A stretch of 64,000 nucleotides of DNA, from positions 1 through 64,000 of the forward strand of contig JAFQEY010000035.1 in the NCBI GenBank assembly GCA_017398765.1, in the 5' to 3' direction. This document shows positions 6,401 to 59,217 of the stretch, one piece after another. A model generated the notes under the pieces. The model was given only the letters and a program-made list of their open reading frames with translations. It was not told the DNA's origin and ran no database searches. How positions within the stretch are numbered: the first letter of the stretch is position 1; each line of letters starts with the position of its first letter. The translations under genes and the position numbers were made by a program. This stretch comes from Akkermansia sp. (GTDB taxonomy: Bacteria; Verrucomicrobiota; Verrucomicrobiia; Verrucomicrobiales; Akkermansiaceae).

Positions 6401-7607
6401 AGGTAAGACTCGTGCCGTTACCGATATTGAGCGTGGTACTGTCCGGGGGATTACCGGCAGACCATGTTTCTGAGTTCAGGGAAGAGAGTACGGCAAAGCG
6501 ATGACCGCCGCTGAACTCAGCATCCACCGTACCGGAACCACGCACATAGAGAGCCTTATAGGTATTGACGGTCAAATCATCCCAAAAATCGCTTCTGAAC
6601 AGCCCCATGGCAAATGATTTGATGGTACCGTTGTTCAGGGTTACTGCTGTGGTATTCACCAGGCTGCGCCCCATGTGACTGTCAATAAAGGTGGCATCCT
6701 TGTTGACGATGATGTTGGCAAAAGAAAGCTTATTGGAGGGCGTAATCGGGTGTCCGTCATTATCCGTATCAACCGCATCAGCCCAGCGTACAACACCCTC
6801 ATCAACAACGAGATCACCATAGTGGTACTGATGGTTAGCTTTCAGCGTGAGTGTACCAACACCGGACTTAGTCAGAGAGCCGAAACCGGAGATCATACCG
6901 GTAACAGTGGTGGCATTTGCCCCAACGTTGATGAAAGTATCACCGACGGATACCAGAGGCATCGTATACGTGGCGGCGGCTGTCGCCAGAGCACCATTCC
7001 CCCCGGAGCCGTGAAGAATCAGCTTGGTGTAATAGGTCTCCTTCTCGCCCAGCACATAAGTCGTATCATTAACATCGAGCAAACCGGTAAAATTAGCGAG
7101 CTGTCCTGCCAGAGAACCGCTTGCGGTACCCCATGCGATTTCAACACGTCCGGAGTTGGAACGGAACACCTCTGCATTGCCATCCAACGCATCACTGGAA
7201 AGACGCAGCACACCGTCCTTGATATCAAAGGCAGCATCCAAAAGATAACCGTTGCTGCTGATATCCAACACCACGTCCTTACCCACACCGAAAATCCCGG
7301 CGATTACATTCCCCCCCAAAGTGATACTGGTATCGCCGAGGAAGGTAATGTTGTCATCGCGATTGAAGGAAGTATCACCTACAGAAGAGTTAGGGATGAC
7401 CGAACCATACTTGAACCCCTTCAGCTCACCACCTTCATAGACAATGGTGGCAGCGGAAACCTGTTGGGAGGACAACGCGGCAGCAGCCGTAGTTGCCAAA
7501 GCACCACCAACAAATGAGCCGGAGGAAATAGTCGTGACAAGCGAAGCACCGATGGCATAGCATGCCATAAGTGCTGCACGAAGTTTGCCGGGGAGATGTA
7601 ATTTCAT
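405..7607 (-). CDS. Giant autotransporter (type Va) with C-terminal beta-barrel
   Basis: A 2400-residue surface protein. The N-terminus is a long signal peptide (basic start MKLHLPGKLR, hydrophobic core, Ala-rich cleavage region near residues 40-53). Residues about 60-2050 form a passenger rich in G, T, S, N and V with short imperfect beta-strand repeats, including autotransporter-associated motifs such as KSGVGTLTLKA and KRGAGTLELG. The last roughly 270 residues look like an autotransporter barrel: YFNAWINAEVGNRN, then alternating strands, ending in YRINF with the terminal Phe expected of BAM substrates. It is probably displayed on or cleaved from the outer membrane; the ligand is unknown. 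It has its own promoter (7674-7702) and terminator, so it is monocistronic. The family call is secure; adhesion is an inference. Confidence 0.9.
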   Translation of the reverse strand: MKLHLPGKLRAALMACYAIGASLVTTISSGSFVGGALATTAAAALSSQQVSAATIVYEGGELKGFKYGSVIPNSSVGDTSFNRDDNITFLGDTSITLGGNVIAGIFGVGKDVVLDISSNGYLLDAAFDIKDGVLRLSSDALDGNAEVFRSNSGRVEIAWGTASGSLAGQLANFTGLLDVNDTTYVLGEKETYYTKLILHGSGGNGALATAAATYTMPLVSVGDTFINVGANATTVTGMISGFGSLTKSGVGTLTLKANHQYHYGDLVVDEGVVRWADAVDTDNDGHPITPSNKLSFANIIVNKDATFIDSHMGRSLVNTTAVTLNNGTIKSFAMGLFRSDFWDDLTVNTYKALYVRGSGTVDAEFSGGHRFAVLSSLNSETWSAGNPPDSTTLNIGNGTSLTSTIIDKIVNFHGTITSLDAMSADHQFRVDAVHQDAGYAVSLDMATNAFGFTKTGAGDVTFTNKLTSEDSVVVRGGNLNVKGQLVAEGVDVSSGRMLADHDAELQTLLVSGNGSFRTGNRTETLAVADELRVTGGEFILSGEGSTLRAERDVVISGGKTTINGTLQAGNLSIVGNAGTTVSLNGSVTVESLEKLGAAVLNLPVYGEDRSHIVSVTRSLTMNYGGTADSFNGGNFAVLSPGNGVVLKYLSGAKNVIKLDYGRNTAQTLLGYMFVDVHELSAAELSRGINLGIESDVVPGMAAGSRVSHLYASTLGVKDVDYRIVTRADGYYYLETLKGQVATTTWDVNWGWEEVSSAPETVGEWVYTSIDDTGLYQSAYDDDGYFIASKLVGSNATGAPGTGTNDPATGKPKIIPVNVYGGAYDSVDSEGAKIVRDVWLNVADGNFALVAGGSRCGGTAAVAGWNLEGDTHIYVGAEVDSIGTVVGGNFLNAYEPNWTGDGFISVLTNKLTGSVFGGGFDSISHLGDSSIYVYKSLATNTPTMVYDYTIGDTEQGIGKRIDQNTIAAGLYMARSSQWNGDGRIIVDLAGDKSDDRMAKSIVGGNFIEGMSDQGIATRVGNNRVVIRNTCQEADSRLFSNYIVGGDLLINMGNSDMTGDTYVEFSNMGKLTYIGSKSYNVDNVFVTGGHMILNIPATAVKYTPNSVFTLTGNTHIRVTNAENGVFNANMVAGHATSREKTYHGEDIAADVMFERLNVSTINGDTFIEADSGLYRGVLVGGHYYEDFIHDALPDKSGAVPVHPRQFTEPDTLIVTGTTHIDLTGGSYRNMVLGASYYDGWDDLTMNTGGVEINVSNSEMGDATLKGTTNAYNYAVVGGYYIDEFLHGEEVNGPYESPARPSTTLSATVGDIDLTFRNSTINGIILGGSHIFRSMAAPGLSGVRQGNITIDLVSGTFNGNIYAAGCQASSVELYTESTTVRVSDEVKFGSKVTVSGGYMGSGSSAVYGDTTLEFHSPTRYSNIANTNFIFFDVVKVTDPQGYVVMPHNATLLGDYITKRGAGTLELGVQNKLDMLTVAEGKLRLAAGSGNSASGTKIEQLNLCKGATLDLSAGNCGINGDLVVEGGSRIVIGTGLAPTAIERLIWDDSEKVSLTLSALPTGAESYVVELFSGLTKADIVGLDMRTLDVGYGVRASQYITSNVDLINSYLLLQGDKLVLTRAPRRSVYWEFNGGSGTGYWMSENAWAKKDQTAPDTMFNNEPGSDNVVFSNGKATIIVNQEVMPYDIHIQNGQYTFTGEGKEAVITPYGSIVLSNAGKATFTEDVTLKTSASSTVIYLDDTACSLVVNNGISINRLESKGTVIVNANMAMAEGTTSGGTLIVQGNMTVGGDSTFAELQVKGAVLNNKDFTLTTDGISSIGSIDGGAVGVLKGGELTINPDGSPGTTRLKALRGLGSLVTKNRLEVAEDSQIGDLNVESLVLGGTLQSTGSVSVTNDMAISDSVTVTGALEVGSITYNKLTLKSNYSMIDVEGNVYSSAEDKQLLMNINTTLIATKILSDGKPYYVLKCDEGGMSDVKVVFDAEGTTELFTQNDRYDYYVYAVDNGVVLRADLTDPHLYEEKVAETTNGIAGAKLLDELYKDATILELYPEGDLALTVEAINQQLMINNSKEGLDELFAAVAGASIPAMGVAFADDINRQLQAIRNRTTTMGVDQSEVNENLPYFNAWINAEVGNRNLDEDGTSSGYDMSSWGGTVGFDVDFTPRVTAGLAVSAMYGDYSSNSPDSAEGDFDTQYVTAFVRYGFRSWVHTFVASVGRADATLERTVSHQYGAYRTKGETDGMGLGLMYELGYVRALNESGTACIQPVMNFTLTKASLDGYTETGSDAALKVGDIEMTTFTVGAGARVQAIVGENLYNRASIFECRALAKLRAGDRNADADVGFAAVPMGTASVESAEVGAVGIELGAGIVIPLGADHSSVFADVSAEFSTGYTSVNGTIGYRINF

Positions 7608-8646: not shown

Positions 8647-10113
8647 TCAGAAAGAAAAGACACCTTGCAACTGGAACACGAGGGCCTGATCACGTGATTC
8701 CGCATGAACGGGGTTGAAAAGGTACTGAATATCCGGCTGCAGGTAGAAAGTGGGTGTAAGCTGAATAACCGCCGTAAGCTCCAGGCCATATTCATCTCTA
8801 TGAGCATAGGGGCGTTCTTTTCCAGCAGCCCGCATCCAGAGAAAACCGAAGCCTACTTGGTCATTATTGCGGCGGCTTCCCCAACCGGATGACGAGAAAG
8901 GAGCCTGCAACACCAAGCCTGCAGTGGCGGAGGCACGCACCCCGGTGACAGCGGAAGCATCATTATCCAAATAGCCGCAGCGGGTGAAAAAGCCCAGGCG
9001 CGAGCCCGGCCCCAATTGTTGTTGAATATTGCAGGCCACGCCATCTCCGGAGGCTCCGTCATTTCGTGTAAGAGAATACTGCAGGCGATAAACGCCCGGC
9101 CCCAGGCCCAAAGCATCATCAACAATGAAGCCGATTTCGCCCACATGTACCCAATAATCACTGTCAATGTGATTAAATGGATTCTGATTGATACCACCGT
9201 TGCAGCCTGTAGTAGCATACATGGCATAAAAGGACTCCGTGGGCTGCCAGGCAGTCATGTAGCCCCAATTTCCCCACTCCAAAGGCAGACAAGGATTACT
9301 ACCGAAAGCAGAGTTGGTGAGATTTCCGTGCCAGGAGGCGGCATAGGAATTCTGATCCAGATAGTTGGAGGCATCCAGTGTACCAATCATACCAACCCAC
9401 TTGCCATCAAACATGCTCAAGCCCAGAGCCAACTCCGGCAGGAACACGCCACTGCCGCCGCGCAGACTGCTCTGCGGCTGACTGAGAGTCCCCAGACTGC
9501 CCTGCACGCCCCCGCTCCGCTGGCTGAAATTTGCACCCAGTCCCAAATCCGCCTCAAATGACAGGAAGAAACTGTGAGCACCATCCTGCGTTTTAGCGAG
9601 GAACCATTTACCGGCAGCCTGAAAATTGAAGGCGGAAAAGTTGCTGTGATTACCGTGAACGGAGGGTGTGATACGAGCGTAGTTATAGGTAGCCACTGCA
9701 CTGTACTGCAAGCCCACAGTAGAGAGTGCATGCTTAACCCGCTGGGCAGAGGTAGAAATAATATCCTCATTCACAAAAGAGCAGGGTTCAGTGCAGGTAT
9801 TACCCGGCACAAAGATACTATCCAGATACGGCATGAAACGGGGTGCCGTATCCGGGAAGAAGTGCCAACGGCCCACGGTTCCGTTACGCCGGCGGCTCTG
9901 TTCCAACAGCAGTTCAGCTGTCGGCACACCGGTATGCCGGCGAGCCTGTTGCTGCTGCGGGGTCATGACTCGCCGCAGACTACCGGGAACCGTCTGTTCG
10001 GGCATCTGCTCGGCTAATCGCCCCAGAGCTGTATCCAAGTACGAGGAAAATGGCTCCTGCGCCACGGCAGCCATAGCCGTTACCAACAATACAAATGTGA
10101 TTCGGACTTTCAT
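8647..10113 (-). CDS. OprB-like carbohydrate-selective porin
   Basis: 488 residues. A signal peptide (MKVRITFVLLVTAMAAVAQ) is followed by a linker with ATPQQQQARR-like low complexity and then an outer-membrane barrel. The C-terminal half has the OprB signature layout: NDQVGFGFLW, then a Glu-containing strand GLELTAVIQLTPTFYLQPD, then QYLFNP and a terminal VFQLQGVFSF ending in Phe. OprB porins pass sugars across the outer membrane. Nearby genes give no substrate clue. The gene converges on rplT. Confidence 0.8.
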   Translation of the reverse strand: MKVRITFVLLVTAMAAVAQEPFSSYLDTALGRLAEQMPEQTVPGSLRRVMTPQQQQARRHTGVPTAELLLEQSRRRNGTVGRWHFFPDTAPRFMPYLDSIFVPGNTCTEPCSFVNEDIISTSAQRVKHALSTVGLQYSAVATYNYARITPSVHGNHSNFSAFNFQAAGKWFLAKTQDGAHSFFLSFEADLGLGANFSQRSGGVQGSLGTLSQPQSSLRGGSGVFLPELALGLSMFDGKWVGMIGTLDASNYLDQNSYAASWHGNLTNSAFGSNPCLPLEWGNWGYMTAWQPTESFYAMYATTGCNGGINQNPFNHIDSDYWVHVGEIGFIVDDALGLGPGVYRLQYSLTRNDGASGDGVACNIQQQLGPGSRLGFFTRCGYLDNDASAVTGVRASATAGLVLQAPFSSSGWGSRRNNDQVGFGFLWMRAAGKERPYAHRDEYGLELTAVIQLTPTFYLQPDIQYLFNPVHAESRDQALVFQLQGVFSF

Positions 10114-10218
10114 TGCAGCTCTATGACAACACCTATCACCCTAACCATAAATAACAGTCAGAACTATTTCACTTACGCCTACCCCAGCCCCTGCATCCCG
10201 GTTACCAAGCAGCTGAAA

Positions 10219-10248
10219 CAAAAAAAAACGCAGTGTCTAAACACTGCG
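10219..10248 (-). terminator. Intrinsic terminator after the 10274-11065 gene
   Basis: Minus-strand CGCAGTGT and ACACTGCG arms are followed by eight T. It ends the deacetylase and Lys/Pro-rich protein operon. Confidence 0.85.
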
Positions 10249-10273
10249 GGGTGAAAAGCAACAAAGACCCGGC

Positions 10274-11065
10274 TTATTCGCTCTCCGAGGCATCATCTGC
10301 GCCATCAGGAGCAGGCATCTCCACCGGAGTGGGAGCCGGGCGATGCCGGGCAGCCTCCAACAGGAAAATCTCTGCGACCTTGAACGCTCTGCGAGACGCT
10401 TCGGCCGCGGTACGGTCATCCATGAGGGCCAGACCTTCCTCCGTCACTTCTCCCAGAAAAATCTTCCAGGCGCGGCGGTTAAGCTCATCGGGGTCAACCC
10501 GAGCAGGGAGCGTATTCAGCTGTTGGTCACGGTTGTTATCCTCACGATTGCGGTTACGGTTGCGGCGGCGCTTGCGGCGGTTGTTGCCACCTCCTTCATT
10601 GCCGCCTACCACCTCCGGCATGGCAAAACCGGGCACGGGATCCGGTTTGCGGAATTCCGCCGGGGGCACCGGGACATCCTCTTCATCGCGCACGGCGGGT
10701 GCTTTCCGCACCTCTGTGCGAGGAGCCGGTTCGGGTTGGGGCATCGGAGCAGCAGCAGGTGCGGGTATATCCTTTTTACTGCTTTCCTCCGCGCGGGCTT
10801 CCGGTTGCTCTGTCGCCACGGGAGCAGGCTGCACTGCGGGAACCGGCTCCGCTGCCGGAACCGTGGGTTCTGCTGCGGGTGCGTCAACTTTCCTGCGGCG
10901 GGGAGCACGCGGCTTTCTCACTTTCTCGGGAGCGAGGGAGGCGGCGGGGGTGCCGGCATCTCCCTCGGGAGCCACTGCGGGAGTCTTGCTGCGGGTGCTC
11001 TTGCGGGGAGCACGCTTCCTGGCAGACTTCACCGGGGCATCTGTCTTGGGTTCTTCCTGATCCAT
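10274..11065 (-). CDS. Lys/Pro/Ala-rich hypothetical protein
   Basis: 263 residues, not recognised. The first 180 are low complexity: basic AKR/PRK clusters (SARKRAPRKSTRSK), acidic and proline segments, then an Arg/Asn tract (NNRRKRRRNRNRNRED) that could bind nucleic acid or polyphosphate. The final roughly 75 residues (from NTLPARVDPDELNRR) look folded and helical. It has no signal peptide or membrane segment. It follows the polysaccharide deacetylase gene by 13 bases, so the two are probably co-transcribed and stop at the terminator 10219-10248. Confidence 0.7.
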   Translation of the reverse strand: MDQEEPKTDAPVKSARKRAPRKSTRSKTPAVAPEGDAGTPAASLAPEKVRKPRAPRRRKVDAPAAEPTVPAAEPVPAVQPAPVATEQPEARAEESSKKDIPAPAAAPMPQPEPAPRTEVRKAPAVRDEEDVPVPPAEFRKPDPVPGFAMPEVVGGNEGGGNNRRKRRRNRNRNREDNNRDQQLNTLPARVDPDELNRRAWKIFLGEVTEEGLALMDDRTAAEASRRAFKVAEIFLLEAARHRPAPTPVEMPAPDGADDASESE

Positions 11066-11078
11066 ATATTAAGTATTG

Positions 11079-12338
11079 TCAGTGTTGAGACGTTGCGTAC
11101 GGGTCAATACAGAACGACCACTCTGCCTTGTGGGCGGTGCCGTCTGTGCTCTTCCACGTTACGTGAACGGAGATATTCGGCATGTAGATGCGCACCGGGA
11201 GCATCCACTGCACAGAGCGCGTATTCCTGTCCACACGGGCAGGCACGCGCCCAAAACCACTCACGGCCATGTGAACGGTTGAGAAATCCACCCCGGACAT
11301 TTGACTCATATCGATAGAAATGATACCGAAATCACGGGGAACCGTTTCATTCGGCGCGGGGCGGACAGGGAACGGTGGCAGCGGTGTAGATGACGGCAAG
11401 GTTCCGGGAGAAGCCCCGGTTGCCGCAGCGGTGCCAAGTTGGGTCATGCGAAAATCCATCGCATGGCGAAAAATGGAATGATTATTACCAAAGACCATGT
11501 AACGGCGAATCTGCAAGGGATTTTCCGTCACGGTCACTTTGCCGGGAATCACGGTAAAAGCCGCCTTGCATCCATAGCCGGGCAACCGCTCCTCCATAGC
11601 CGGGGTGTGGTATCCTCCGGGGTAGCAATAGGTATCCACCGTGCCGAAGAGCTTCGAGAGCTTCGGGAAAGTTGAACCGATTTCGCGTTCAACCATGGCG
11701 GCTTCCTCCTCCGGGCCCTTGGCAGCAGCAGATTTCCAGGCACGTGGGTAAGCATGGCTGGCAGAGTGGCTGCCCACGGTGGCACCGTGCTGCTGCATTT
11801 CCCGAATCATCGCCGGGGACATGCTATCACCGCGACCGCTGAGAAACTGGGTATAGAGGAAAAGGTGGAACGGGTAACCAAACTCGTGTAAAATGGGGTA
11901 AGCCTCCGTATACACGCTTCGCCAACCGTCATCCAGCGTAATCAAGACACACTTAGCGGGCAGTTCCCGGGTACCGAAGCGCCACTCAAGAAACTCCGGC
12001 ATGCTGATGACGGTAAGCCCGGCATTGCGGATATACTCCATCTGCTTGCGAAAATCGCTCGTGCGCATAAGCATATCCGACACCGGTGCCGTTTTACTGA
12101 AATTATGGTATCCCAGAATCGCCACGCGGGTTTGATCCCGCGGCACCAGCAGCCGCGAATCAGTGCTCTGCTCCGGAGCCTCCTCCACCTCTTCCGCAAA
12201 ATCATCATCCATAAACGGCGAGTATGTGGCCAAATCCTCAGCCAAAGGGTCGGGATTGAGCGGCATCGGGGCTGCGTCCTGACCAAAAGCCGGGCCGACC
12301 ATAACCAGTAGCAACAGCATGTGCAAAAATGCTCTCAC
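11079..12338 (-). CDS. Polysaccharide deacetylase (carbohydrate esterase 4)
   Basis: 419 residues starting at GTG. Signal peptide MRAFLHMLLLLVMVGPAFGQ. The NodB/CE4 domain spans about 70-280, with the metal and catalytic motifs TLDDGW (134-139), HSASH (191-195) and YCYPGGY (237-243). Such enzymes remove N- or O-acetyl groups from peptidoglycan, chitin-like or poly-GlcNAc polymers in the envelope; the substrate here is unknown. The last 90 residues form an extra beta-rich domain of unknown function. The start codon lies about 8-10 bases after a TAGTCT/GATAGT -10 box. It is the first gene of a two-gene operon. Confidence 0.85.
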   Translation of the reverse strand: MRAFLHMLLLLVMVGPAFGQDAAPMPLNPDPLAEDLATYSPFMDDDFAEEVEEAPEQSTDSRLLVPRDQTRVAILGYHNFSKTAPVSDMLMRTSDFRKQMEYIRNAGLTVISMPEFLEWRFGTRELPAKCVLITLDDGWRSVYTEAYPILHEFGYPFHLFLYTQFLSGRGDSMSPAMIREMQQHGATVGSHSASHAYPRAWKSAAAKGPEEEAAMVEREIGSTFPKLSKLFGTVDTYCYPGGYHTPAMEERLPGYGCKAAFTVIPGKVTVTENPLQIRRYMVFGNNHSIFRHAMDFRMTQLGTAAATGASPGTLPSSTPLPPFPVRPAPNETVPRDFGIISIDMSQMSGVDFSTVHMAVSGFGRVPARVDRNTRSVQWMLPVRIYMPNISVHVTWKSTDGTAHKAEWSFCIDPYATSQH

Positions 12339-12562: not shown

Positions 12563-13339
12563 TTATTTTAACTGGGTCGGGTAGATGACGCGATGCAGGT
12601 AAAGCCCCTCTGCCGGAGCGCAGAAACGGGTTTTCGGTGCATGAATATCCAACAGCATGGCAGATAACGCCTCCGGGGTCATACGCCCCCGTGCTACCTG
12701 ATGCGCCGTACCGACAAGCATGCGCACCATGCGGTACATGAAGCCGTTGCCGTGGAAACGCAGGCGGAGCATACCCTGCCCCTCCCGCTGCAGCTCAGCG
12801 GCATGAATGGTGCGCTCATAAAAACCGGGCGGCGGCGGTTCCGGCTCATTGCCGCGCCGTGCCGCAAAGCGGCGGAAATCATGCGTGCCTACATACACGC
12901 GGAGAGCCGCTTCCAACAGTTCCTCCGAAAACGCATGCGGTATATGCCACGCTCTCCCGCACAAAAAGGGGTTCAGCACCGCATCCCGACAAATGAGGTA
13001 CTCATAGACCTTCCCCTCAGCACTGAACCTCGCGTGAACATCTGCCGAGACATAACGCGCCGCCAGCATGCGGATACTGCCGGGCAAGTGCGCATTGAGG
13101 GCTGCAACCCAGTTTTCCGCGCTCATGCGGCAGCTTTCCGGCAAATCTGCATGAAACACCTGAGCCAGAGCATGCACCCCGGCATCCGTACGCCCGGAGG
13201 CGGCTATGCGCACCGGCTCCCGGACTATACGCCCCATTGCTTCCTCTATGGTATCCTGAAGCGTCTGGCCGCCACGCTGGCTCTGCCAACCGCGGTAAGG
13301 CGCACCGTCGTACGCGCAGGTGAAAAGGATACGAGCCAT
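12563..13339 (-). CDS. truA: tRNA pseudouridine(38-40) synthase
   Basis: 258 residues. TruA isomerises uridines 38-40 in the tRNA anticodon arm. The catalytic Asp52 sits in SGRTDAGVHALAQVFH; other family blocks are YDGAPYRGWQSQ, FSAEGKVYEYLI, HDFRRFAARR and GFMYRMVRMLVGTA. The ATG at 13339 was chosen because it gives the canonical ARILFTCAYDG start. An earlier in-frame ATG at 13387 would place the start beyond the terminator of the upstream gene (13351-13385). Confidence 0.95.
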   Translation of the reverse strand: MARILFTCAYDGAPYRGWQSQRGGQTLQDTIEEAMGRIVREPVRIAASGRTDAGVHALAQVFHADLPESCRMSAENWVAALNAHLPGSIRMLAARYVSADVHARFSAEGKVYEYLICRDAVLNPFLCGRAWHIPHAFSEELLEAALRVYVGTHDFRRFAARRGNEPEPPPPGFYERTIHAAELQREGQGMLRLRFHGNGFMYRMVRMLVGTAHQVARGRMTPEALSAMLLDIHAPKTRFCAPAEGLYLHRVIYPTQLK

Positions 13340-13350
13340 GCAAAGTGAGT

Positions 13351-13385
13351 AAAAAGCCGCAGCTCCGTGGTGCAGAAGCTGCGGC
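13351..13385 (-). terminator. Intrinsic terminator of the acidic lipoprotein gene
   Basis: Minus-strand arms GCCGCAGCT and AGCTGCGGC followed by TTTTT, lying between the lipoprotein stop (13412) and truA. Confidence 0.85.
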
Positions 13386-13411
13386 AATGATGTAAACTTG
13401 GCAAGACGGAA

Positions 13412-14362
13412 TCAGATTTCGATATCAATCATATCATCACCACCGTCATCGGATGCTTCTTCGCTGCTGTCATCCGTTGTTTCACCGGAGTCAGAGCTGT
13501 CATCGGCAGCGGCATCGGAACCGGCATCACCGCCGTCATCATCCAGAGAAAGGTCATCATCTCCACCCTCAGAGGAATCGTCCGTCGTCTCCTCAGCAGA
13601 CGAATCAGAGCTGCCATCCGTCGTCTCCTCAGCAGATGAATCAGAGCTGCCATCCGTTGTCTCTTCAGCAGAGGCATCATCGCCGGGCTCCTCAGCAGCC
13701 TCTTCCTGAGCGGCCTCGCGGTCATCAGGCGGCACGGGGATAGACACTTCCTCCTCAGCAGCCACCTCTGCAGCCTCAGGAATGGCGGGGCAATCTTCAG
13801 CCTTATCAAAGCGGGCCATGGGGAACTCCGCCGGGTCAGCCACATATTCCAAGGCAGCCTTGAGCTTGGCGGAGCCATAGCACTCTGCGAAGTTGGGCGG
13901 ATTATTGGCGTTCTGATCTTCCGGGTTGTATATGTACTTGGCACCGGCTTCCACCTGCTCCTGGGGAGAAGCATCCGCGGCAGCACCGGAGTTGGCCCCC
14001 ACTGCACGCACCAGCAGGGAATCCACCACCTCACCGTCATGCTCGGCTACGGGCTTACTGGCACGCACGCGACCAATCTGGCGGGCAAGACGGCAAGTAG
14101 CATCGGCGTATGCTTCTGCCTCACTGTTCACCAGAGCATTCCCGCCCATGCTGAACACACGCACGCTGGCATTCTGGTAACGCTTATTAAGTGCTTCCAC
14201 ACGAGGCGCAGCGGCTTCTGCTGTCTTGTAGCTGGTCACCTTCTGCAGCTCGGCAGTCAATTCTTCAGCCAGCTGTGTAGCCGACATTTCTTCCTTCTGG
14301 CAGGAAGTAAGCGCACCCATAACCGCCAGGGCGCAAGTGGGAATGAAGAGAAAACGTTTCAT
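13412..14362 (-). CDS. Acidic repeat lipoprotein
   Basis: 316 residues, function unknown. Lipoprotein signal MKRFLFIPTCALAVMGALTSC with a lipobox ending LTSC. Residues about 25-200 look globular and helical. The C-terminal roughly 110 residues are Asp/Glu/Ser/Thr-rich and include tandem copies of a 12-residue unit like SSAEETTDGSSD. Such acidic tails may bind cations or act as extended spacers (inference). The ATG at 14362 was chosen because an upstream ATG at 14419 lies in the -35 element of the promoter and the lipobox fits only this start. It is a single gene with its own promoter and terminator. Confidence 0.8.
   Translation of the reverse strand: MKRFLFIPTCALAVMGALTSCQKEEMSATQLAEELTAELQKVTSYKTAEAAAPRVEALNKRYQNASVRVFSMGGNALVNSEAEAYADATCRLARQIGRVRASKPVAEHDGEVVDSLLVRAVGANSGAAADASPQEQVEAGAKYIYNPEDQNANNPPNFAECYGSAKLKAALEYVADPAEFPMARFDKAEDCPAIPEAAEVAAEEEVSIPVPPDDREAAQEEAAEEPGDDASAEETTDGSSDSSAEETTDGSSDSSAEETTDDSSEGGDDDLSLDDDGGDAGSDAAADDSSDSGETTDDSSEEASDDGGDDMIDIEI
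13582..13680 (-). repeat. 36-bp tandem repeat in the lipoprotein tail
   Basis: Two full 36-bp units (13582-13617, 13618-13653) differing at very few bases, and a third partial diverged unit to 13680. Each encodes 12 residues, so copy-number change keeps the reading frame. Confidence 0.85.
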
Positions 14363-29132: not shown

Positions 29133-30086
29133 TTACAGTCCTTTCTGCAGCCGCAAAAAACGCTCGCGGATGTGGTACAGGTAGGAATGAAGTGCCTTCC
29201 TACTGAGCAGAGAAGCATGTATTTGTTGTTCTAATTTATTCTGTTGAGAGAGCGCTTTTCTCAAATAACGAATCGCAGCTTTACGGGGGAGTCCTATTCT
29301 TTCTGCCCAATCAAGAAAATGAGCTCCCATACCCGCTCGAGAAACAGGTTGACCATTGGCAAATAAACCGTGGCTTAAAGCAAAGTCAGAATCTTCCACA
29401 TGCAGGCGAGTGTTCATGACATCATAGGCCGGAGCCAGCACCATTCCTCCAGTATCGTTCTCCAGAAGGGCAAAATTTTTCATGTGTGCATCACCGTTGC
29501 ACAGCAGATAATTCACCACTACATACTGAAAGAAGAGCATGAGCTGAATACGCGGTGCAATGGCGTAACGAGCAATGATGGAGGCAAGTTCCTCATAGCT
29601 TCCTTCATATTTACTGCCACTGTTTTCCTGTGTGAGAACATTTCCTAACGCAGCCAAATCTTCCATTCTGCGCTTGCTGCCGTCCGGTTTCACATCGAAG
29701 CGTCTCACCAGATACGCCGGTTCACCATCCCCATAAAAACAGAGAGTACATTCTGCTACGGGAAGCCCGAATAATTCACTTGCCCAGCGCATGCTCTGCC
29801 ACTCATTCACCGGCATATCCGTCCGCAGCTTCATACGGTGCGGACGCGGCTTCAACATATAGAGCCCTTGCTCCCCTTGTTTTGCGTAGCGCAGGAAATG
29901 TCCATCCGTTATCAGAGAGTATTTTTCTTGTGCTCCGGATACAGATATGCAGCCGGGACTATCAGCCTCACTTTCCTCATCGTTAAAAGGAGAGCTTTCG
30001 TACGGCAAAATCGGGCTGATATTCTGCCCGTCAAACAACCGCCGGCACTCAGCCGGACTATACCTTGAAAAAAGAGGGGCATTCAT
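29133..30086 (-). CDS. hipT: HipT-like Ser/Thr kinase toxin of a HipBST system
   Basis: 317 residues, the HipA kinase body without the N-terminal subdomain, which is a separate gene here. Visible: the Gly-rich loop with an S48-V-S50 pair (CISVSGAQEK), like the two autophosphorylated serines of HipT; the lysine strand LYMLKPRP; the catalytic loop NGDAHMKNFAL (Asp199); and the metal-binding APAYDVMNT (Asp222). In the E. coli HipBST system HipT phosphorylates tryptophanyl-tRNA synthetase; the target here is not known. It overlaps hipS by 4 bases (ATGA), indicating translational coupling. It converges on PEP-CTERM gene B. Confidence 0.85.
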   Translation of the reverse strand: MNAPLFSRYSPAECRRLFDGQNISPILPYESSPFNDEESEADSPGCISVSGAQEKYSLITDGHFLRYAKQGEQGLYMLKPRPHRMKLRTDMPVNEWQSMRWASELFGLPVAECTLCFYGDGEPAYLVRRFDVKPDGSKRRMEDLAALGNVLTQENSGSKYEGSYEELASIIARYAIAPRIQLMLFFQYVVVNYLLCNGDAHMKNFALLENDTGGMVLAPAYDVMNTRLHVEDSDFALSHGLFANGQPVSRAGMGAHFLDWAERIGLPRKAAIRYLRKALSQQNKLEQQIHASLLSRKALHSYLYHIRERFLRLQKGL

Positions 30087-31806: not shown

Positions 31807-32769
31807 TTATGGCTGCATGCAGTTGAGAATGACCGAGATGATAGTCTCCATCTCATCCGGTCGGGACTCGGCAATAAGAATGACAAGTGCCACCAGTGTA
31901 GCATCTGCCAGCCGTTTTTCACCATCAATAAAGAGGGCGTTGTTGCAATCCAGAAAATACAGGAACACGGCAGCGGCAATGCGTTTGTTACCGTCGTAAA
32001 ATCCGTGATTTTTGACGGCAAAATACAGCAGGCGGGCTGCTTTTTCCTCCATGGTAGGATAGATATCCACACCACCGAAGCTTTGGTAGATATTCCCCAG
32101 AGAGCCGCGAAAGGAATCATCCTTTTCGCGCCCGAAAAGGTCGGATTCCGCGCCGAAACTCATGCTGTCTATGAGTCTGCGGCATTCATCGTAGCTGAGC
32201 ACATAGCAGTCAGAGCGGCCTTCGGGGCGGGTAAGACACTGGTGGTCATACGCATCCAACAGATTCAAACCGGTGCTGTAATGCTCTATCACATCCAGCA
32301 CCTGCCGGGCATCCGAACGGTCTGCGGCGCGGCGCATCAGCCGCACCACCTGTCCCAGCTGCTGCAGGCGGCGCTCATGCACCACATAGCCGCGCAGCAG
32401 ATACTCCCGCAAACGGCGCGTTGCCCAGATTCGGAACTGCGTACCCCGCCGCGTATTCACACGGTAGCCCACGGAGAGTATCATGTCCAGGTTGTAAAAT
32501 CGGACGGGACGACTGACCTGTCGATTCCCTTCCCGCCGAACTTGTAAAAATTCCTTACAAGTTCCCTCTCGTTGAAGCTCAAGCTCTTGGTATATATTAC
32601 CAACATGCATGATGATATTCTGAACCGTTGTCTGAAACAGCTCAGACATCATCTGCTGCGTCATCCACAGCGTTTCATCCTGCAGGCGGATATCCAGCTG
32701 CACCTCACCATCGGGAGTGGTGTAGAGCAGTATCTCGCTCTCAGGTTCCTGTGGAATATCGGCTTTCAT
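31807..32769 (-). CDS. RhuM-like protein fused to a Fic/Doc domain
   Basis: 320 residues. The N-terminal half matches RhuM/KilA-type virulence proteins (LQDETLWMTQQMMSELFQTTVQNI, then FYNLDMILSVGYRVNTRRGTQFRIWATRRL). The C-terminal part is a Fic/Doc domain with the active motif HGFYDGNKR (255-263). Fic enzymes transfer AMP or phosphate to target hydroxyls; the RhuM part may direct DNA or protein binding. These fusions occur in bacterial accessory regions; host target unknown. It has its own promoter (32782-32810), giving a leader of about 6 bases. Confidence 0.85.
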   Translation of the reverse strand: MKADIPQEPESEILLYTTPDGEVQLDIRLQDETLWMTQQMMSELFQTTVQNIIMHVGNIYQELELQREGTCKEFLQVRREGNRQVSRPVRFYNLDMILSVGYRVNTRRGTQFRIWATRRLREYLLRGYVVHERRLQQLGQVVRLMRRAADRSDARQVLDVIEHYSTGLNLLDAYDHQCLTRPEGRSDCYVLSYDECRRLIDSMSFGAESDLFGREKDDSFRGSLGNIYQSFGGVDIYPTMEEKAARLLYFAVKNHGFYDGNKRIAAAVFLYFLDCNNALFIDGEKRLADATLVALVILIAESRPDEMETIISVILNCMQP

Positions 32770-48910: not shown

Positions 48911-49654
48911 ATGAATAAACTCCCTTTATGCATTACCCTGTTGATGAGCATTTCCGGTTTCGGCATAGCTGCAGATGCTCCCACTGCTACCCTGTACTCA
49001 CTTACTCGAGTGTTTGAGGAAAAGAAAGAAGCTGCTCAGAAGTCCGAGAGCATGTTCCATTTCTTCAAAGAACAACCTGCACTCCAAATTACATGGAAAC
49101 TCCATGCCCCGCCAGAACAGAGCATCATCAGTGTTAAACCCGGAGATATCAGCATTACTGACACCTCCGGCACCACGCTGGAATGGAGCTCCGGCAATCT
49201 TCCTTTCTCCAACAAGGAGGGTAAACTTGTATCCATCGACATCGATACCCAACCCAAGGGAGATTGGATTGAAATCAAGGGAAATCTTTCTGCTTCTGTA
49301 GCCAAAGGCTCCACCAAACAGCCGGCACAGACGGTTAAATCCGGCGAAAAAGGCAAACTCAACATTAAAGGGCTTAACATTTCCTATGAATGGGAAGAAG
49401 ATGAAAATATTCAGTTCTCCATGTCCGACAAAGACAACGCCAGGGTGGCCGATATCCGATTCAGAACTAAATCCGGTCAGATAGTCAAGGTAAACGGAAC
49501 CACCCTATGGAGCGGCATGAAAGAAATAACATTAGGCTACAGCCTTGACACCGATGAAAAAGAAGTCAGTGTCGTTGTCACCACTTACGAAGATCCCACC
49601 ACCATCACCATTCCGCTCAATATGAAGGTTGGGTTCAGTGGCGTGCAAAAGTAA
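48911..49654 (+). CDS. Secreted hypothetical protein
   Basis: 247 residues, not recognised. Signal peptide MNKLPLCITLLMSISGFGIA, then a beta-rich mature part with many alternating Ser/Thr/Ile strands and acidic segments (YEWEEDENIQFSMSDKDNAR), probably a periplasmic or outer-membrane-associated domain. It is a single gene with its own promoter. The divergent partner (47322) is also an envelope protein. Confidence 0.72.
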   Translation: MNKLPLCITLLMSISGFGIAADAPTATLYSLTRVFEEKKEAAQKSESMFHFFKEQPALQITWKLHAPPEQSIISVKPGDISITDTSGTTLEWSSGNLPFSNKEGKLVSIDIDTQPKGDWIEIKGNLSASVAKGSTKQPAQTVKSGEKGKLNIKGLNISYEWEEDENIQFSMSDKDNARVADIRFRTKSGQIVKVNGTTLWSGMKEITLGYSLDTDEKEVSVVVTTYEDPTTITIPLNMKVGFSGVQK

Positions 49655-51433: not shown

Positions 51434-51454
51434 CAAGCTCAGGCATACATGAAC

Positions 51455-53869
51455 TCAAAACCCACGCGGTTCTGAGTTCATGCTTTCTGCCACCGTTGGC
51501 CAATCCACAAACTCGAAAGCTTCATTCTTTACAATTTTCTCACGGAAGGAATACACCCTCCCGGCATGATTCAGGAGCTTGATATAAGACATGCAATCTG
51601 CCGGGGTAAGCCCCAAAACACGCAGATTAGCGTAAATGTGGTAAAATTCATTTTTAATATCTGTAACAAAGATACCGGGGTCATCTGACCCTATGCACAC
51701 CGTCATCACTTCATCTCCCGGCAAGGCATGCCCCTTCAACCCCAACCACCGTAAAATGTGGTGCTGCCGCATGTCCCGATACTGGCTGATGCGCACATTG
51801 CTGACCGGCAAAGCCTCCAGCACCACATCACGCTCATTGATGAGTTTCTGCACTCTCTGCTGCAGAAGCAACAGAATTTCCGTATTCAGGAAATCCCGTT
51901 TCACCTCCACCAGCTTATCCTGTTCCGCTATGGAATCCCTATCATACAGCCAGTGGCGGAATAATTTTAACCCACATATCCCCCGCTCCTTACGAAACGT
52001 CATGGCGTACATGTCCTCCGGATCCGGCGACCAGCAATCATCGCTTGATGCGTCAAGCGCAAAGTCCAAACTCTTCGGGTCCAGACATCTCGCACTGTAA
52101 AAAGCCGAAAGAGAGTGGACATGAACATCCAAATCAGTATTCTCCCGCTTAAAAATCTTCATCGCAACATGCAGCATCGCCTGCTCGATTTTGAGAATAT
52201 CCATGTGGTTGCACTCCAGCAATAACTTCCGCACAAAAATGAGATCCAGCAACCAATCCCCCTGCCGCATTACCACCATCTCCGGCATATCCTCTCGCCA
52301 CCTATCCGGCGAGATACCAATAGCCGTGGCATGACCTATGCGATTTCCCTGCCTGAGCTCCAGAAATTCAAGTCCCTCATGAACAGCGCGTATCCCACTG
52401 ATAAGATGGTAAAAATCCTCCCCGCAATGGTAAGTTCTGTAGCTGATACCCGTCTCCCTTTCAAACAAACGAAACACCGGGGCCATCACATCTGGCGGGC
52501 ACTGCATCTCATTCCCGGCACCGTCAATACTTATCCCCACATCACACAATTGGCTTATATGCTCCACATACCACACCAAGCGCCTGCACTCCATTTCCAG
52601 CCGGCGGCGTACACCGCCATAGCGCTCCACACAGACACAATTATCATGCATCACGACCACACGGCTCGCTCTTTTCAGAAAGTGAATTGTCACGATGAAC
52701 CTGGGGGTCACCCCTGCCCTTTCCGCACAACATTCTCTCCATATCTTCTCCAGGCGCACCCCCATCCGGCAGAAAATATCCGGGCTGATGCGAATCTCAA
52801 TACATGATTTATCAGTAACAGAGCAGCGGTCCAACACCTGCCGGAACGCATTGTGATAATACACATCCAAAGAAGTTCCGAGACAGGCATAGTGCGCACG
52901 AACCTGAAAATACTCAAACCCTTTGTTTGCTTCATTCATGCGGCACAACTGCAAATAGTCATTTTGAATGAGCAAATATAAGTGCGCAAAAAACAGAATA
53001 CCCTCAATATCCTGAATATTCTTATCCACCAACTCAAACAGCGTTTCCCACAAAACCAACTCCTGCTGCGCCAGTTCATCCCCACTTACATGATGCACAC
53101 ATGCAGGGATAACTGCCGGTGCAAGACCATCATCATTCACAAAATCACGGTAAAGCTGATGCATCCGTTCAACCACCCGCGGGGCATCATTCTCATCATT
53201 CAGGCTCAACAGCTCATAACGCAGCAACCTGGCCAGCCTCATCCGCCGGCTCATCTCCGTCATGGTCAACTCCGGATGAACAGCTGTGTAAAGCACCTGC
53301 ATATTTCTCTTCTTAAACCGCATGATATGGTGCTCGTATGCCGAAAGATTATTCAACGCCTCCAACCATGAAATCTCCGGAGGCATGCAGGCATGCAAAT
53401 GCAGGTGACACTCACTCAATCCCTCGCGCTGGATGTAATCCGCCATACAAGAGGAATAGGGATGCACCGGCGTACGCCGCAAATGCATACCCTCCCGGTG
53501 CAGTACCCAGAACTTCACAGGCTGCATCGACATCCGACCTCTTAAATTTTGCCAACGGGCAAAGATTTCATGAGAACGAATGTAAAGGTGCCTGTTGCGC
53601 ACACACAGGTACTCATTGCCCACAAAATCAAGAGCACTCAGAAGAATGTGCACAGATTCCTCACAAAACTTCCGCCAACGCTGAACAAACACATGCCGGG
53701 GGCGGCGCGAATCATGTTGCAGACTCGCCACTTCCGCCCATTCCTGCCAGAAATCATGCGGCGTTTTTCTTCCCGTAAAAAACTCCTTATAATAATCTTT
53801 CCGCAACAAAGCATTGGTTGCGACGGGGTTGGACAACAGGAATACGGATAAGGTTGAAATAATGGACAT
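51455..53869 (-). CDS. rdrB: RADAR system adenosine deaminase RdrB
   Basis: 804 residues. A long, diverged adenosine deaminase: HLHLHA (155-160) for the metal site, SIDGAGNE (447-454), HCGEDF (481-486), RIGHA (510-514), SNVRIS (690-695) and GSDDPG (727-732), the order of the deaminase family but spread over a protein about twice normal length, as in RdrB. In characterised systems RdrB forms a large assembly that deaminates adenosine or ATP upon phage infection. It follows rdrA by 25 bases. Assignment rests on these motifs and the RdrA partner. Confidence 0.88.
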   Translation of the reverse strand: MSIISTLSVFLLSNPVATNALLRKDYYKEFFTGRKTPHDFWQEWAEVASLQHDSRRPRHVFVQRWRKFCEESVHILLSALDFVGNEYLCVRNRHLYIRSHEIFARWQNLRGRMSMQPVKFWVLHREGMHLRRTPVHPYSSCMADYIQREGLSECHLHLHACMPPEISWLEALNNLSAYEHHIMRFKKRNMQVLYTAVHPELTMTEMSRRMRLARLLRYELLSLNDENDAPRVVERMHQLYRDFVNDDGLAPAVIPACVHHVSGDELAQQELVLWETLFELVDKNIQDIEGILFFAHLYLLIQNDYLQLCRMNEANKGFEYFQVRAHYACLGTSLDVYYHNAFRQVLDRCSVTDKSCIEIRISPDIFCRMGVRLEKIWRECCAERAGVTPRFIVTIHFLKRASRVVVMHDNCVCVERYGGVRRRLEMECRRLVWYVEHISQLCDVGISIDGAGNEMQCPPDVMAPVFRLFERETGISYRTYHCGEDFYHLISGIRAVHEGLEFLELRQGNRIGHATAIGISPDRWREDMPEMVVMRQGDWLLDLIFVRKLLLECNHMDILKIEQAMLHVAMKIFKRENTDLDVHVHSLSAFYSARCLDPKSLDFALDASSDDCWSPDPEDMYAMTFRKERGICGLKLFRHWLYDRDSIAEQDKLVEVKRDFLNTEILLLLQQRVQKLINERDVVLEALPVSNVRISQYRDMRQHHILRWLGLKGHALPGDEVMTVCIGSDDPGIFVTDIKNEFYHIYANLRVLGLTPADCMSYIKLLNHAGRVYSFREKIVKNEAFEFVDWPTVAESMNSEPRGF

Positions 53870-53894
53870 ATACCTGTATTATTTCGTCTCAGCC

Positions 53895-56276
53895 TCAATC
53901 AGCGTCAGGATTTCCCGCCGTCGAAATATTTACAGCACTCATCAAAGCGGCAAGCTTCTCCGGCGGTGTAACAATGGATTTATACAACGGGAAATCGATT
54001 AAGGGCAATGCTTCAAGGTTGTTTTCAATCACTAATGAATCATATAATGCATTATCAAAGGCTATCAGATACTTTTCGATGAGCGTATCCGCACGCACCA
54101 AATCATCACATTTGACAGCACGTATTCTGGCAGACTCTGTCACCTCTCCGCACTTGCGCATAAAGCATTCCCAACACATGTACAGTGACTGTGTACTATA
54201 ACGCAATTCTTCCGTGTAACTCAAATTTTTAATAATTTCCTTCACCACTCCCTTGCATGCCGACAAACTGCGCAGATGCAGCACGAATCGATACACCAGA
54301 ATCTCCTTATTATCATAAGATTGAAGCTCTTCCATTGCGGACAGCTTTGGAGCCAGTTTCCGGAATTTTTCAGCATCTCGAATATCCACGGTTATTTCCT
54401 TGAATTCGAATAGAATATCTTCCACCATGGTATCCGTTGCATCCGGCGCGCATGCCATCAGCCGCTGAATCGTCGCAAGTATATTATAAATGGATAAACA
54501 ACTTACACTCAATTCATCTATCCTGGAGCGACTCAACAAATGGTATACAGCCAGAAAATACATGATATTGTCGAGAATCGGTTCATTCAACACCGTCTCC
54601 ATCAGCTGCAGCATAAAATCATCAAAAGAAACACGCTCTATGCCTAAATTGCAGTTTTTGTACGCCTGACTGAATACCGGCATGACTCCATAGGCAAACG
54701 GTCTGGTTTCCCTATCTTTCCGATTATTCATGTGCAGCATGATATCAGTACACTCCGCGCCTATCCGCTGCACTGAGGTTACGCTCAAATGATTCACCAG
54801 CACGTCGCTGTGTCCCTCATATTCACCATACTTATTGTAATACGGGAAAATGTTCAGAATGCAGGCTATAATATCTGAACGACGGTTCACCAGACGGTAA
54901 AACTCAGCAGATAGATAAAAGGAAACCATCTGTAACAAATCATCACCCATCCCTGGTCGCATACACAATCCGCACAACCCCTGTTTCAGATGCTGAATAT
55001 GCAGCAGAATGAAGCGCAACAGACCATAGGGTGCGTTGCGGCGCACGGCGTTCACCTCCACCCCATATTTAATCAATGCATGAGACACAACGTGCTGTAC
55101 ACCATCGCAAAAAAACAGCATGTTGTTTTTTTGAGCCTCAGCACATAAATTCATGTGCCGAACCCAATACGCCAGTAATTGCAACGCACTCCGAACAGAT
55201 AACAGCGACAGGAATCTTGTTATCGCTTCTCCGTCATCTACCACCTTGAGCTCTTCCAATTGTTTTATGAACTCTTTGATACCAATGGCTTGAAATTTTG
55301 GCTTACCATGGTGCTTAATTTGCGGGTTTTTGCTCAATATCCCGCCGAAATCCGACAAAACAATGCGATTCTCTGCCGGAAACAGCTTGATGATGTATTG
55401 TTCCTCCAGATTATCCAACAAATGTATGATTTGACTTTTTCGCTCCTCATCATAATCCAGAGAATATTTGCCGAAATGCCTCATCTGCATCCCACGCACC
55501 ACCATTGTGTACAATTTTTGATCTCCGGCAAACACATACACCATACGTGGTGTTAAAAGATATTTCCGAACCGTTTCAAACACCTCACTGCATTTGTTGA
55601 AATTCATATCCCCATCATCTACCGTAACAAGTAGTGCATCCACCCCCAGCAACTTGCACAAACTATCCACCAACTCCGCAAACTTTGCCTTCAAATGTGC
55701 CCCGCTTATGCATTCTACTATGCTGTCCTGAACAAAAAACTCTGCATCTGACAAATGCTCTATATTTTCTGTTTTCTTCGCAATCAACGCCAAACCCCTG
55801 GACATTTTGTGAAGCGTATCATAGACCTTCTTCCTCTCAAATTTGTAATCATTCCTATAACAATCTCCCTTTGTTGACTCGTTCAGGCATTTCTGCACAT
55901 GTCCCAGTAAATGAATAAAGAAACTCTCCGCGTCTGACAATTCCGTTGGATCAATGCTCGCCAGCAGACGCATCTTCACATCATGATTTTTATTACACAG
56001 GGCGTCTTGCAAGGCAAACAAAATTGTGCTTTTACCGGATCCTCTTCCGCCATTAACAAAATAACACGGCTTATGCACATAGGTCACAACATCCTTATTT
56101 CTTATATGGCTGACATTTGTGCTGGTCTTCCGAATAATCTGTTCCTTAAAATCGTTAAACGTATCCGCATAGAACAGCCTTTCTTCCGGCAGTGCCCCGG
56201 TTTTCTCCAGTTCATCCAAATCTATAACAAGAGTTTCTTCCTTTTCCATGGCAGTCAAGTATATCCTTTTATTCAT
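53895..56276 (-). CDS. rdrA: RADAR system ATPase RdrA
   Basis: 793 residues, large P-loop NTPase: Walker A GGRGSGKST (76-84) and Walker B LLVTVDDGD (215-223), then a long helical C-terminal region. Together with the deaminase-like neighbour this is the RdrA-RdrB pair of RADAR. It is upstream of rdrB, 25 bases apart, with an AGGAG Shine-Dalgarno site 7-8 bases before the ATG, unusual for this genome. Base composition is visibly more A/T-rich than the surrounding core genes, consistent with transfer. No accessory rdrC/rdrD is seen. Confidence 0.88.
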   Translation of the reverse strand: MNKRIYLTAMEKEETLVIDLDELEKTGALPEERLFYADTFNDFKEQIIRKTSTNVSHIRNKDVVTYVHKPCYFVNGGRGSGKSTILFALQDALCNKNHDVKMRLLASIDPTELSDAESFFIHLLGHVQKCLNESTKGDCYRNDYKFERKKVYDTLHKMSRGLALIAKKTENIEHLSDAEFFVQDSIVECISGAHLKAKFAELVDSLCKLLGVDALLVTVDDGDMNFNKCSEVFETVRKYLLTPRMVYVFAGDQKLYTMVVRGMQMRHFGKYSLDYDEERKSQIIHLLDNLEEQYIIKLFPAENRIVLSDFGGILSKNPQIKHHGKPKFQAIGIKEFIKQLEELKVVDDGEAITRFLSLLSVRSALQLLAYWVRHMNLCAEAQKNNMLFFCDGVQHVVSHALIKYGVEVNAVRRNAPYGLLRFILLHIQHLKQGLCGLCMRPGMGDDLLQMVSFYLSAEFYRLVNRRSDIIACILNIFPYYNKYGEYEGHSDVLVNHLSVTSVQRIGAECTDIMLHMNNRKDRETRPFAYGVMPVFSQAYKNCNLGIERVSFDDFMLQLMETVLNEPILDNIMYFLAVYHLLSRSRIDELSVSCLSIYNILATIQRLMACAPDATDTMVEDILFEFKEITVDIRDAEKFRKLAPKLSAMEELQSYDNKEILVYRFVLHLRSLSACKGVVKEIIKNLSYTEELRYSTQSLYMCWECFMRKCGEVTESARIRAVKCDDLVRADTLIEKYLIAFDNALYDSLVIENNLEALPLIDFPLYKSIVTPPEKLAALMSAVNISTAGNPDAD

Positions 56277-56370
56277 GATGATACTCCTTGACCACTGATT
56301 GTCAACCTATTTTTAACCGTTTGATTCTTAGATGCCTGCTAAACTCTAAGCACACTCACCATACAACTTT

Positions 56371-56410
56371 CTAACAAATATAATTTCATAAAATTAACTA
56401 CATTTGTTAG
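56371..56410 (-). promoter_or_regulatory. Inverted repeat upstream of rdrA
   Basis: Perfect 9-bp arms CTAACAAAT and ATTTGTTAG separated by 22 AT-rich bases, about 95 bases upstream of the rdrA start. It could be a regulator site or a stem in a long leader. Confidence 0.55.
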
Positions 56411-56463
56411 TTATTCGCAATCGGATTATTTTTAATAAGTTTCGCAGAGAATATATTTTAACG

Positions 56464-56501
56464 GAAAAAAAGCGGCACTCGCCAAGAGCAACGAGCACCG
56501 C
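56464..56501 (-). terminator. Terminator of the 56536 U32 gene
   Basis: Minus-strand GCGGTGCTCG pairs with CGAGTGCCGC, followed by seven T. Confidence 0.9.
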
Positions 56502-56535
56502 GAAAGCACAGAAATGGGAGCCCACCGCAGGAAAC

Positions 56536-58238: not shown

Positions 58239-58312
58239 GCGCCTGTAGCTCAATTGGATAGAGCATCTGACTACGGATCAGAAGGTTTGGGGTTCGAATC
58301 CCTACGGGCGTG
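58239..58312 (+). tRNA. tRNA-Arg (anticodon ACG)
   Basis: Complete cloverleaf: acceptor GCGCCTG/CGGGCGT, D-arm TAGCTCAATTGGATAGAGC, anticodon stem TCTGA/TCAGA with loop CTACGGA (anticodon ACG), T-arm GGGTTCGAATCCC, discriminator G. The 3' CCA is not encoded. It reads CGN codons, with A34 probably edited to inosine. Confidence 0.93.
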
Positions 58313-58343
58313 CTACTTCTTAAATAATCTTAAAAACAAAAAG

Positions 58344-58407: not shown

Positions 58408-58765
58408 GGGGGCGTCCCGGTTTCGACTGAACATTAGAGACGCCGGCTGCATGTGGAGGTTGATCGGCTGGCCTCCTTAAAAGCCGCTCAAAAGATTAAG
58501 TGCCTATTCTGATAACGAATACGCCATGGCTGCGTAACATACGCGCCGGATCCGATTCCTGACGCCTGCTGGGGATGACGATCTTAGCTTAGCAGGCAGG
58601 TGCCGCGTGGGGGAACCGCGCGCGGCATGACACCCACAGGTTCCTGGCCAGAGTGGAAGGCTGACGCGGAGCGGACCACCGGTAAGATGCAGCAATCCGC
58701 GTCTGAACATGGAGATGCTTGCGTCAACAGTGTCCAGGACAGGGGTTCAATTCCCCTCGCCTCCA
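58408..58765 (+). ncRNA. ssrA: tmRNA
   Basis: Starts GGGGGCGTCCCGGTTTCGAC and ends with the T-arm GGGGTTCAATTCCCC and CGCCTCCA, so the tRNA-like acceptor stem closes; CCA is not encoded. The tag open frame begins at GCC 58502 and reads AYSDNEYAMAA before TAA (58535-58537), the hydrophobic AA end being a protease tag. A promoter (TTGTTC 58374-58379, 18 bases, CATACT 58398-58403) precedes it. It rescues stalled ribosomes. Confidence 0.95.
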
Positions 58766-58884
58766 GCGTTAGAATAATGAGAAATCCCGCGTAAAGTGTC
58801 GACTTTGCGCGGGATTTTGTTTACAATACCGGGGATTCCAGGGGAAAGTATTTTGCAAGTTTGTTACAAGTTTCTTTACAACTT

Positions 58885-59217
58885 ATGAAGATGTTTGATG
58901 GGCAGGTTTCGATTAATAAGGCGGATAATTCTCCGTTCTGGATGGTGAGTTTCCGGTCGGCTGATGGGAAGCAGAAGAGGCGTAGTACTAAGGTGCCGGT
59001 GGCGGGTGGGTTGTTCCAGGGGAAGAGGCACAGTTTGCATAGTAAGTCATTCCATTCTATCCGGGCGACGGCTGCGACGTTTTTGCAGTCAGCGGGGGTG
59101 GCTCAGGGTATGGCAATAAAGTTGGTGGGGCATGATTCGGAGTCGATTCATGAGGTGTATGTGAAGCCGGATGCGGAGTTACTGCGCCGGGCGGCGGAGG
59201 TGCTGCCGGAGATTTGA
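58885..59217 (+). pseudogene. Internally deleted tyrosine recombinase (integrase) at the tmRNA 3' end
   Basis: 110 residues. The N-terminus (MKMFDGQVSINKADNSPFWM) reads like the start of a phage/ICE integrase, then after GGLFQG it jumps directly to the catalytic C-terminus: HSIRATAATFLQSAGV (Box II-like His/Arg), LVGH and the Tyr nucleophile in EVYVKP. About 250-300 residues between these, including the first catalytic Arg, are missing, so it cannot be active. Its position 120 bases after the tmRNA end fits an element that integrated at ssrA. An earlier TTG start at 58861 is also in frame. Confidence 0.82.

Follow-up and report, generated by a model that had tools for sequence, protein, structure and literature searches.

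Gene pair and surroundings

Within the 64,000-nucleotide stretch of an Akkermansia sp. contig analyzed here (JAFQEY010000035.1; referred to as the window), two large genes lie in tandem on the minus strand between a catalase gene and a U32-family gene. The pair and the signals around it are as follows:

51455-53869, minus strand: rdrB, 804 aa, frame open without internal stops
53895-56276, minus strand: rdrA, 793 aa, frame open without internal stops
56284-56289, minus strand: Shine-Dalgarno sequence AAGGAG, 7 nt before the rdrA ATG, read directly from the sequence
56472-56501, minus strand: intrinsic-terminator-like hairpin with T-run, 3' of the upstream U32 gene
51448-51482, no strand assigned: near-perfect palindrome where the rdrB and catalase genes end

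The initial annotation had described two adjacent genes in the order rdrA-rdrB and regarded them as a RADAR anti-phage system. Both reading frames are indeed present and in this order, with a spacing of only 25 bp and no third gene in between. The lack of accessory genes, which had been highlighted as a special feature of a minimal RADAR, is thus correct as an observation but not remarkable, because the two-gene form is the usual one and RADAR has been introduced as a "two-protein bacterial defense system" (PMC9994260). The claimed A/T-rich codon usage was also evident, as rdrA (GC 43%, GC3 49%) and rdrB (GC 49.5%, GC3 58%) both lie below the measured core-type neighbors (GC3 62-83%). Similarly low values were found in a few genes of the window that are small or variable, namely 48911-49654, a gene for a HipA-like C-terminal-domain protein (29133-30086, minus strand), and a gene for a RhuM/Fic fusion protein (31807-32769, minus strand). 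PEP-CTERM-like small proteins with near-identical C-termini are encoded around the latter two genes (27068, 28403, and 30969), and a 2400-aa autotransporter is encoded at 405-7607 on the minus strand. About 2 kb from the RADAR genes, a tRNA-Arg (58239-58313), a tmRNA (58408-58765), and a 118-aa C-terminal fragment of a tyrosine recombinase (58861-59217) follow one another, which is likely an old integration site.

The Shine-Dalgarno site proposed for rdrA was found as AAGGAG at a 7-nt spacing. A start at the internal Met-10 was rejected, as the first ATG has the better Shine-Dalgarno sequence. A promoter-like TTGACA/TATCAT arrangement (56305-56278) overlaps the Shine-Dalgarno sequence and ends just before the rdrA ATG, and we do not claim it; promoter matches in the region were hardly above chance (12 versus 9.2 expected). 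The hairpin behind the U32 gene has a folding energy of -20 kcal/mol (z -3.6) and, on this consensus-type evidence, rdrAB would be a transcription unit of its own. The palindrome at the other end folds with -30.6 kcal/mol on the minus strand and -23.2 kcal/mol on the plus strand and could serve as a two-way terminator between the converging rdrB and catalase genes.

The deaminase is an RdrB

The 804-aa protein gave RdrB as its best match in PADLOC and NCBIfam, with 91.5 bits for the NCBIfam RdrB model versus 29.8 bits for the best adenosine deaminase (ADA) model. A sequence search of the PDB retrieved E. coli RdrB (E=6.5e-85, 289 bits, in two stretches), and ordinary deaminases there reached 29.5 bits. 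The Pfam adenosine deaminase match was at 23.9 bits, under the Pfam cut-off. The NCBIfam and Pfam matches to ADA models did not exceed 30 bits and were confined to the C-terminal ~70-90 residues, with no ADA model matching over the full length. The NCBIfam scores of both proteins are far below the curated cut-offs (91.5 versus 800 bits for RdrB and 125.6 versus 600 bits for RdrA), which are thresholds for annotation and not biological defining features. In the genus alignment, all 12 RdrBs matched the NCBIfam RdrB model with the best E-value of the families listed.

An AlphaFold2 model built on 76 family members (mean pLDDT 90.8) superimposed on E. coli RdrB (8fnv) with Z 40.3 and an rmsd of 2.7 Å over 708 residues, whereby residues 7-778 of the model aligned to 1-798 of 8fnv. 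The predicted structure comprises the ADA core, the N-terminal extension, and the two shell-building insertions of RdrB. The next structural matches were Cad1 and ADA/AMP deaminases (Z ~25 over mostly 300-370 residues), so that the protein is clearly closer to RdrB than to ordinary deaminases. Cad1/CARF-ADA of type III CRISPR systems shares the deaminase core fold (Z ~26 over ~325 residues), but only Cad1 has a CARF domain, and only the protein examined here has the RdrB insertions and an RdrA partner.

All deaminase motifs that had been noted in the sequence (HLHLH, SIDGAGNE, HCGEDF, GHA, and GSDD) are present and provide the following residues:

RdrB zinc/catalytic residues: H155, H157, H481, E484, H513, D729, D730

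The roles of the catalytic residues of E. coli RADAR were taken from PMC9994260, and positions were mapped through close relatives of the E. coli system in our alignments. H152, H154, H498, E501, and H530 of E. coli RdrB correspond to H155, H157, H481, E484, and H513, and the zinc histidine tetrad and the catalytic glutamate are therefore kept; none of these five residues varies among the 76 aligned RdrBs. The glutamates E595-597 at the 3-fold interface, which are essential in E. coli (PMC9994260), align with E576, N577, and T578 in a gappy region whose columns vary across the 76 RdrBs.

The ATPase is an RdrA

RdrA was likewise the best match of the 793-aa ATPase in PADLOC and NCBIfam (125.6 bits in the latter). 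In the PDB sequence search, E. coli RdrA was found with E=1.5e-36 in the ATPase part only. This weak point was resolved by the whole-chain structure match: an AlphaFold2 model built on 69 family members (mean pLDDT 84.2) aligned to the E. coli RdrA ring (8hr8) with Z 27.4 over 683 residues, spanning model residues 15-791 and including the C-terminal lobe. The match to S. suis RdrA had Z 21.9, and that to Cdc6/ORC only Z ~12, which speaks against the ATPase belonging to an unrelated family.

The Walker motifs are where they had been described, with Walker A at residues 76-84 (GGRGSGKST, K82) and Walker B at 215-223 (LLVTVDDGD, D220/D221), and two further ATPase positions could be assigned:

RdrA sensors: sensor 1, D252; sensor 2, R362

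Altogether, G81, K82, T83, D221, D222, D253, and R377 of E. coli RdrA correspond to G81, K82, S83, D220, D221, D252, and R362. The predicted structure also contains a C-terminal helical lobe and a crown-type four-helix insertion at ~119-210 (helices 119-134, 142-166, 178-193, and 195-210), which sits between the strands 102-108 and 214-220. Of the E. coli crown residues K150, E151, and R162, which align with R148, K149, and R160, E151 is thus replaced by a lysine. The crown and 3-fold interface positions differ among family members, and RADAR membership does not hinge on them.

With 793 aa, the protein is shorter than every other RdrA of its subclade (793 to 1048 aa); the E. coli protein has 947 aa. 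A truncation was considered and rejected: the alignment reaches residue 929 of the 947-residue E. coli chain and only 25 bp separate the gene from rdrB, and we therefore take the protein as a naturally shorter form.

Overall, the Akkermansia and E. coli systems (RdrA 8fnt/8hr8, RdrB 8fnv/8hr7; PMC9994260) share the gene order, near-whole-length folds, all catalytic residues tested, and the crown-type helical insertion of RdrA. They differ in sequence (28% identity for RdrB and 20% for RdrA over the aligned structures) and in two of the three interface glutamates of RdrB and crown residue E151, which the Akkermansia pair has not kept.

RADAR family survey

A scan of genome contigs with the single RdrB sequence found nothing, whereas an alignment-based scan, which covered one genome per species, yielded 330 RdrB relatives. 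We fetched 80 of these and, together with 4 viral contigs, examined 84 loci. In all but 5 of the 84, rdrA preceded rdrB on the same strand, in nearly every case as its immediate neighbor; the 5 exceptions include contigs that are short or loci that end close to rdrB. In a tree of 76 RdrBs calculated by a quick method, the window RdrB grouped in a four-row clade (support 100) with two Akkermansia RdrBs and one RdrB from a clostridial MAG. This clade next joined other Akkermansia RdrBs (support 96), in the half of the tree that also holds the enterobacterial RdrBs. As judged by this tree, the window RdrB sits inside the RADAR family.

Both Akkermansia members of the clade have the same gene order but lie at chromosomal sites that differ from that of the window. 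Their RdrBs are 44% (Akkermansia sp. RGIG6177; L031/L048) and 36% (Akkermansia sp. S38M_St_6; L030/L049) identical to the window RdrB, and their RdrAs, with 1002 and 1048 aa, carry long C-terminal extensions of 200 or more residues that are missing here. In RGIG6177 (L031), transposase-like genes flank the pair at 5458-6537 and 13011-14159, which by eye are IS630-like and IS30-like. The closest RdrB by sequence (45-46% identity) is from Clostridia bacterium RGIG7280 (L047), a MAG labeled as another phylum; as this copy is on a 3.7-kb contig without rdrA, transfer and mis-binning are indistinguishable.

Phage carriage of RADAR was also considered and found no support: none of 50,697 phage records contained RdrB, and only RdrB-like genes in the 4 viral contigs and distant RdrB-like genes in 7 plasmid records were detected.

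Distribution, gain, and loss in Akkermansia

Full-length rdrB was present in 10 of 76 Akkermansia species genomes, two of which have two copies, and an eleventh genome had only a remnant. In other genera among 143 relatives, no rdrB match was found. RADAR is therefore fairly common in Akkermansia; it has been reported in <1% of genomes overall (PMC9994260), although the two samplings differ. We found no paper on RADAR in Akkermansia in the open literature. The Akkermansia RADARs form two lineages, the second of which has RdrBs of ~890-930 aa and is mostly located inside polysaccharide-type gene clusters. At four second-lineage loci (L036-L039), rdrAB is in glycosyltransferase/polysaccharide-type clusters, and the genes beside it are shared by several Akkermansia genomes labeled Lapin. 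At another locus (L032 in G060), a 908-aa ORF at 9410-12136 (plus strand) directly follows rdrB and has an N-terminal hydrophobic region and the P-loop GVVGSWGVGKT; it is possibly an accessory gene, in this locus only.

The patchy distribution suggests that RADAR was probably horizontally gained and lost in the genus, and a related species (G022) has the corresponding empty site:

51434-56535, no strand assigned: segment of 5,102 bp that holds the RADAR pair and is missing from G022

In G022, the catalase and U32 genes are only 7 bp apart, and the encoded catalase and U32 protein are 92% and 94% identical to those of the window. In another Akkermansia species (G008), the last ~20 rdrB codons (reading GYEFADWPTLAETMKSEPEWL-stop) lie beside the catalase gene, with unrelated sequence beyond them, which indicates that RADAR was probably once present there. 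Three such rdrB 3'-end remnants were found:

L046 (G008), about 2163-2250
L131 (G015), 6946-7203, minus strand
L132 (G007), 7054-7314, plus strand

These remnants of the same rdrB end in three Akkermansia genomes represent repeated loss. At the junction of rdrB end and catalase, G008 has a hairpin whose sequence differs from that of the window, and the hairpins are strong in both. We can only guess that the rdrB end was retained for a role in terminating the converging catalase transcript.

Alternative explanations

Could the deaminase be a common purine-salvage enzyme acting on adenosine or AMP that stands by chance beside an unrelated ATPase? The weak C-terminal ADA-model matches mentioned above would fit this view, and as the 84%-complete assembly of the source genome gave no Pfam A_deaminase match, no other, housekeeping ADA was found beside RdrB. 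However, the protein has 804 aa instead of ~330, its whole chain including the insertions aligns with RdrB at Z 40.3 over 708 residues, compared with Z ~25 over ~310-370 residues for ADA-type enzymes, its partner corresponds to RdrA over the whole length, and, unlike a housekeeping gene, it is missing from most genomes of the genus. Whole-chain structure and sequence thus rule out this explanation for practical purposes.

The other alternatives accept a relationship to RADAR. The pair could descend from RADAR but have lost its function in this species, through recent decay or because the RdrB shell no longer forms. This would be in line with the repeated losses in the genus, as seen from the rdrB remnants in G008, G015, and G007, and with the only partial conservation of the interface glutamates. 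Against it, neither frame is interrupted over its ~800 codons, every catalytic residue tested is intact, and model confidence is high along almost the entire chains. We therefore regard decay as improbable. A RADAR-like fold with another effector chemistry, e.g., a different nucleotide substrate or trigger, appears if anything slightly less probable. The ~28% identity to E. coli RdrB, the differing interface residues, and an RdrA that is the shortest of its subclade next to two long relatives could point to it; on the other hand, the complete zinc/catalytic set is kept, and RADARs of E. coli, C. rodentium, and S. suis with 22-28% identity in conserved parts all protect against T-even phages (PMC9994260). 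Given the RADAR identity, retention of function is in our judgement very likely.

Proposed function and significance

In agreement with the initial annotation, we conclude, with a probability of about 95%, that the pair is an intact RADAR system of this Akkermansia species, probably horizontally gained and lost. It would act like E. coli RADAR, for which biochemistry and phage protection have been demonstrated (PMC9994260). The E. coli system needs both active sites, assembly of the RdrB shell, and contact between RdrA and RdrB, and no robust RNA editing was observed (PMC9994260). By analogy, the Akkermansia pair most likely acts as known RADARs do. The AAA+ ATPase RdrA would assemble into a ring, respond to phage infection, and dock with its crown on RdrB, whose subunits would assemble into a deaminase shell. 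RdrB would convert ATP and dATP to ITP and dITP, and this nucleotide poisoning would halt phage replication. Expression, assembly, substrate, trigger, and phage protection of the pair are thus presumed to correspond to those in E. coli. A wider view, in which the Akkermansia RADARs are lineages of their own that, given the variable length of the RdrA C-terminus (793 to 1048 aa in the subclade of the window), may sense other phage cues than E. coli RADAR and may use another RdrB 3-fold interface, and in which the genus is a hotspot of fast turnover, is speculative and in our opinion rather unlikely.

The known mechanism of RADAR is unchanged by these data. They document an intact RADAR of divergent sequence in a gut genus that is of broad interest, and the empty site in a neighboring species shows gain and loss of the system. 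As the scores of both proteins are under the NCBIfam cut-offs, automatic annotation would leave rdrA and rdrB unnamed, and RADAR is therefore probably under-counted. The additions are modest: how often RADAR occurs in the genus, the empty site together with the remnant, the differing lengths of the RdrA C-terminus, and this annotation gap.
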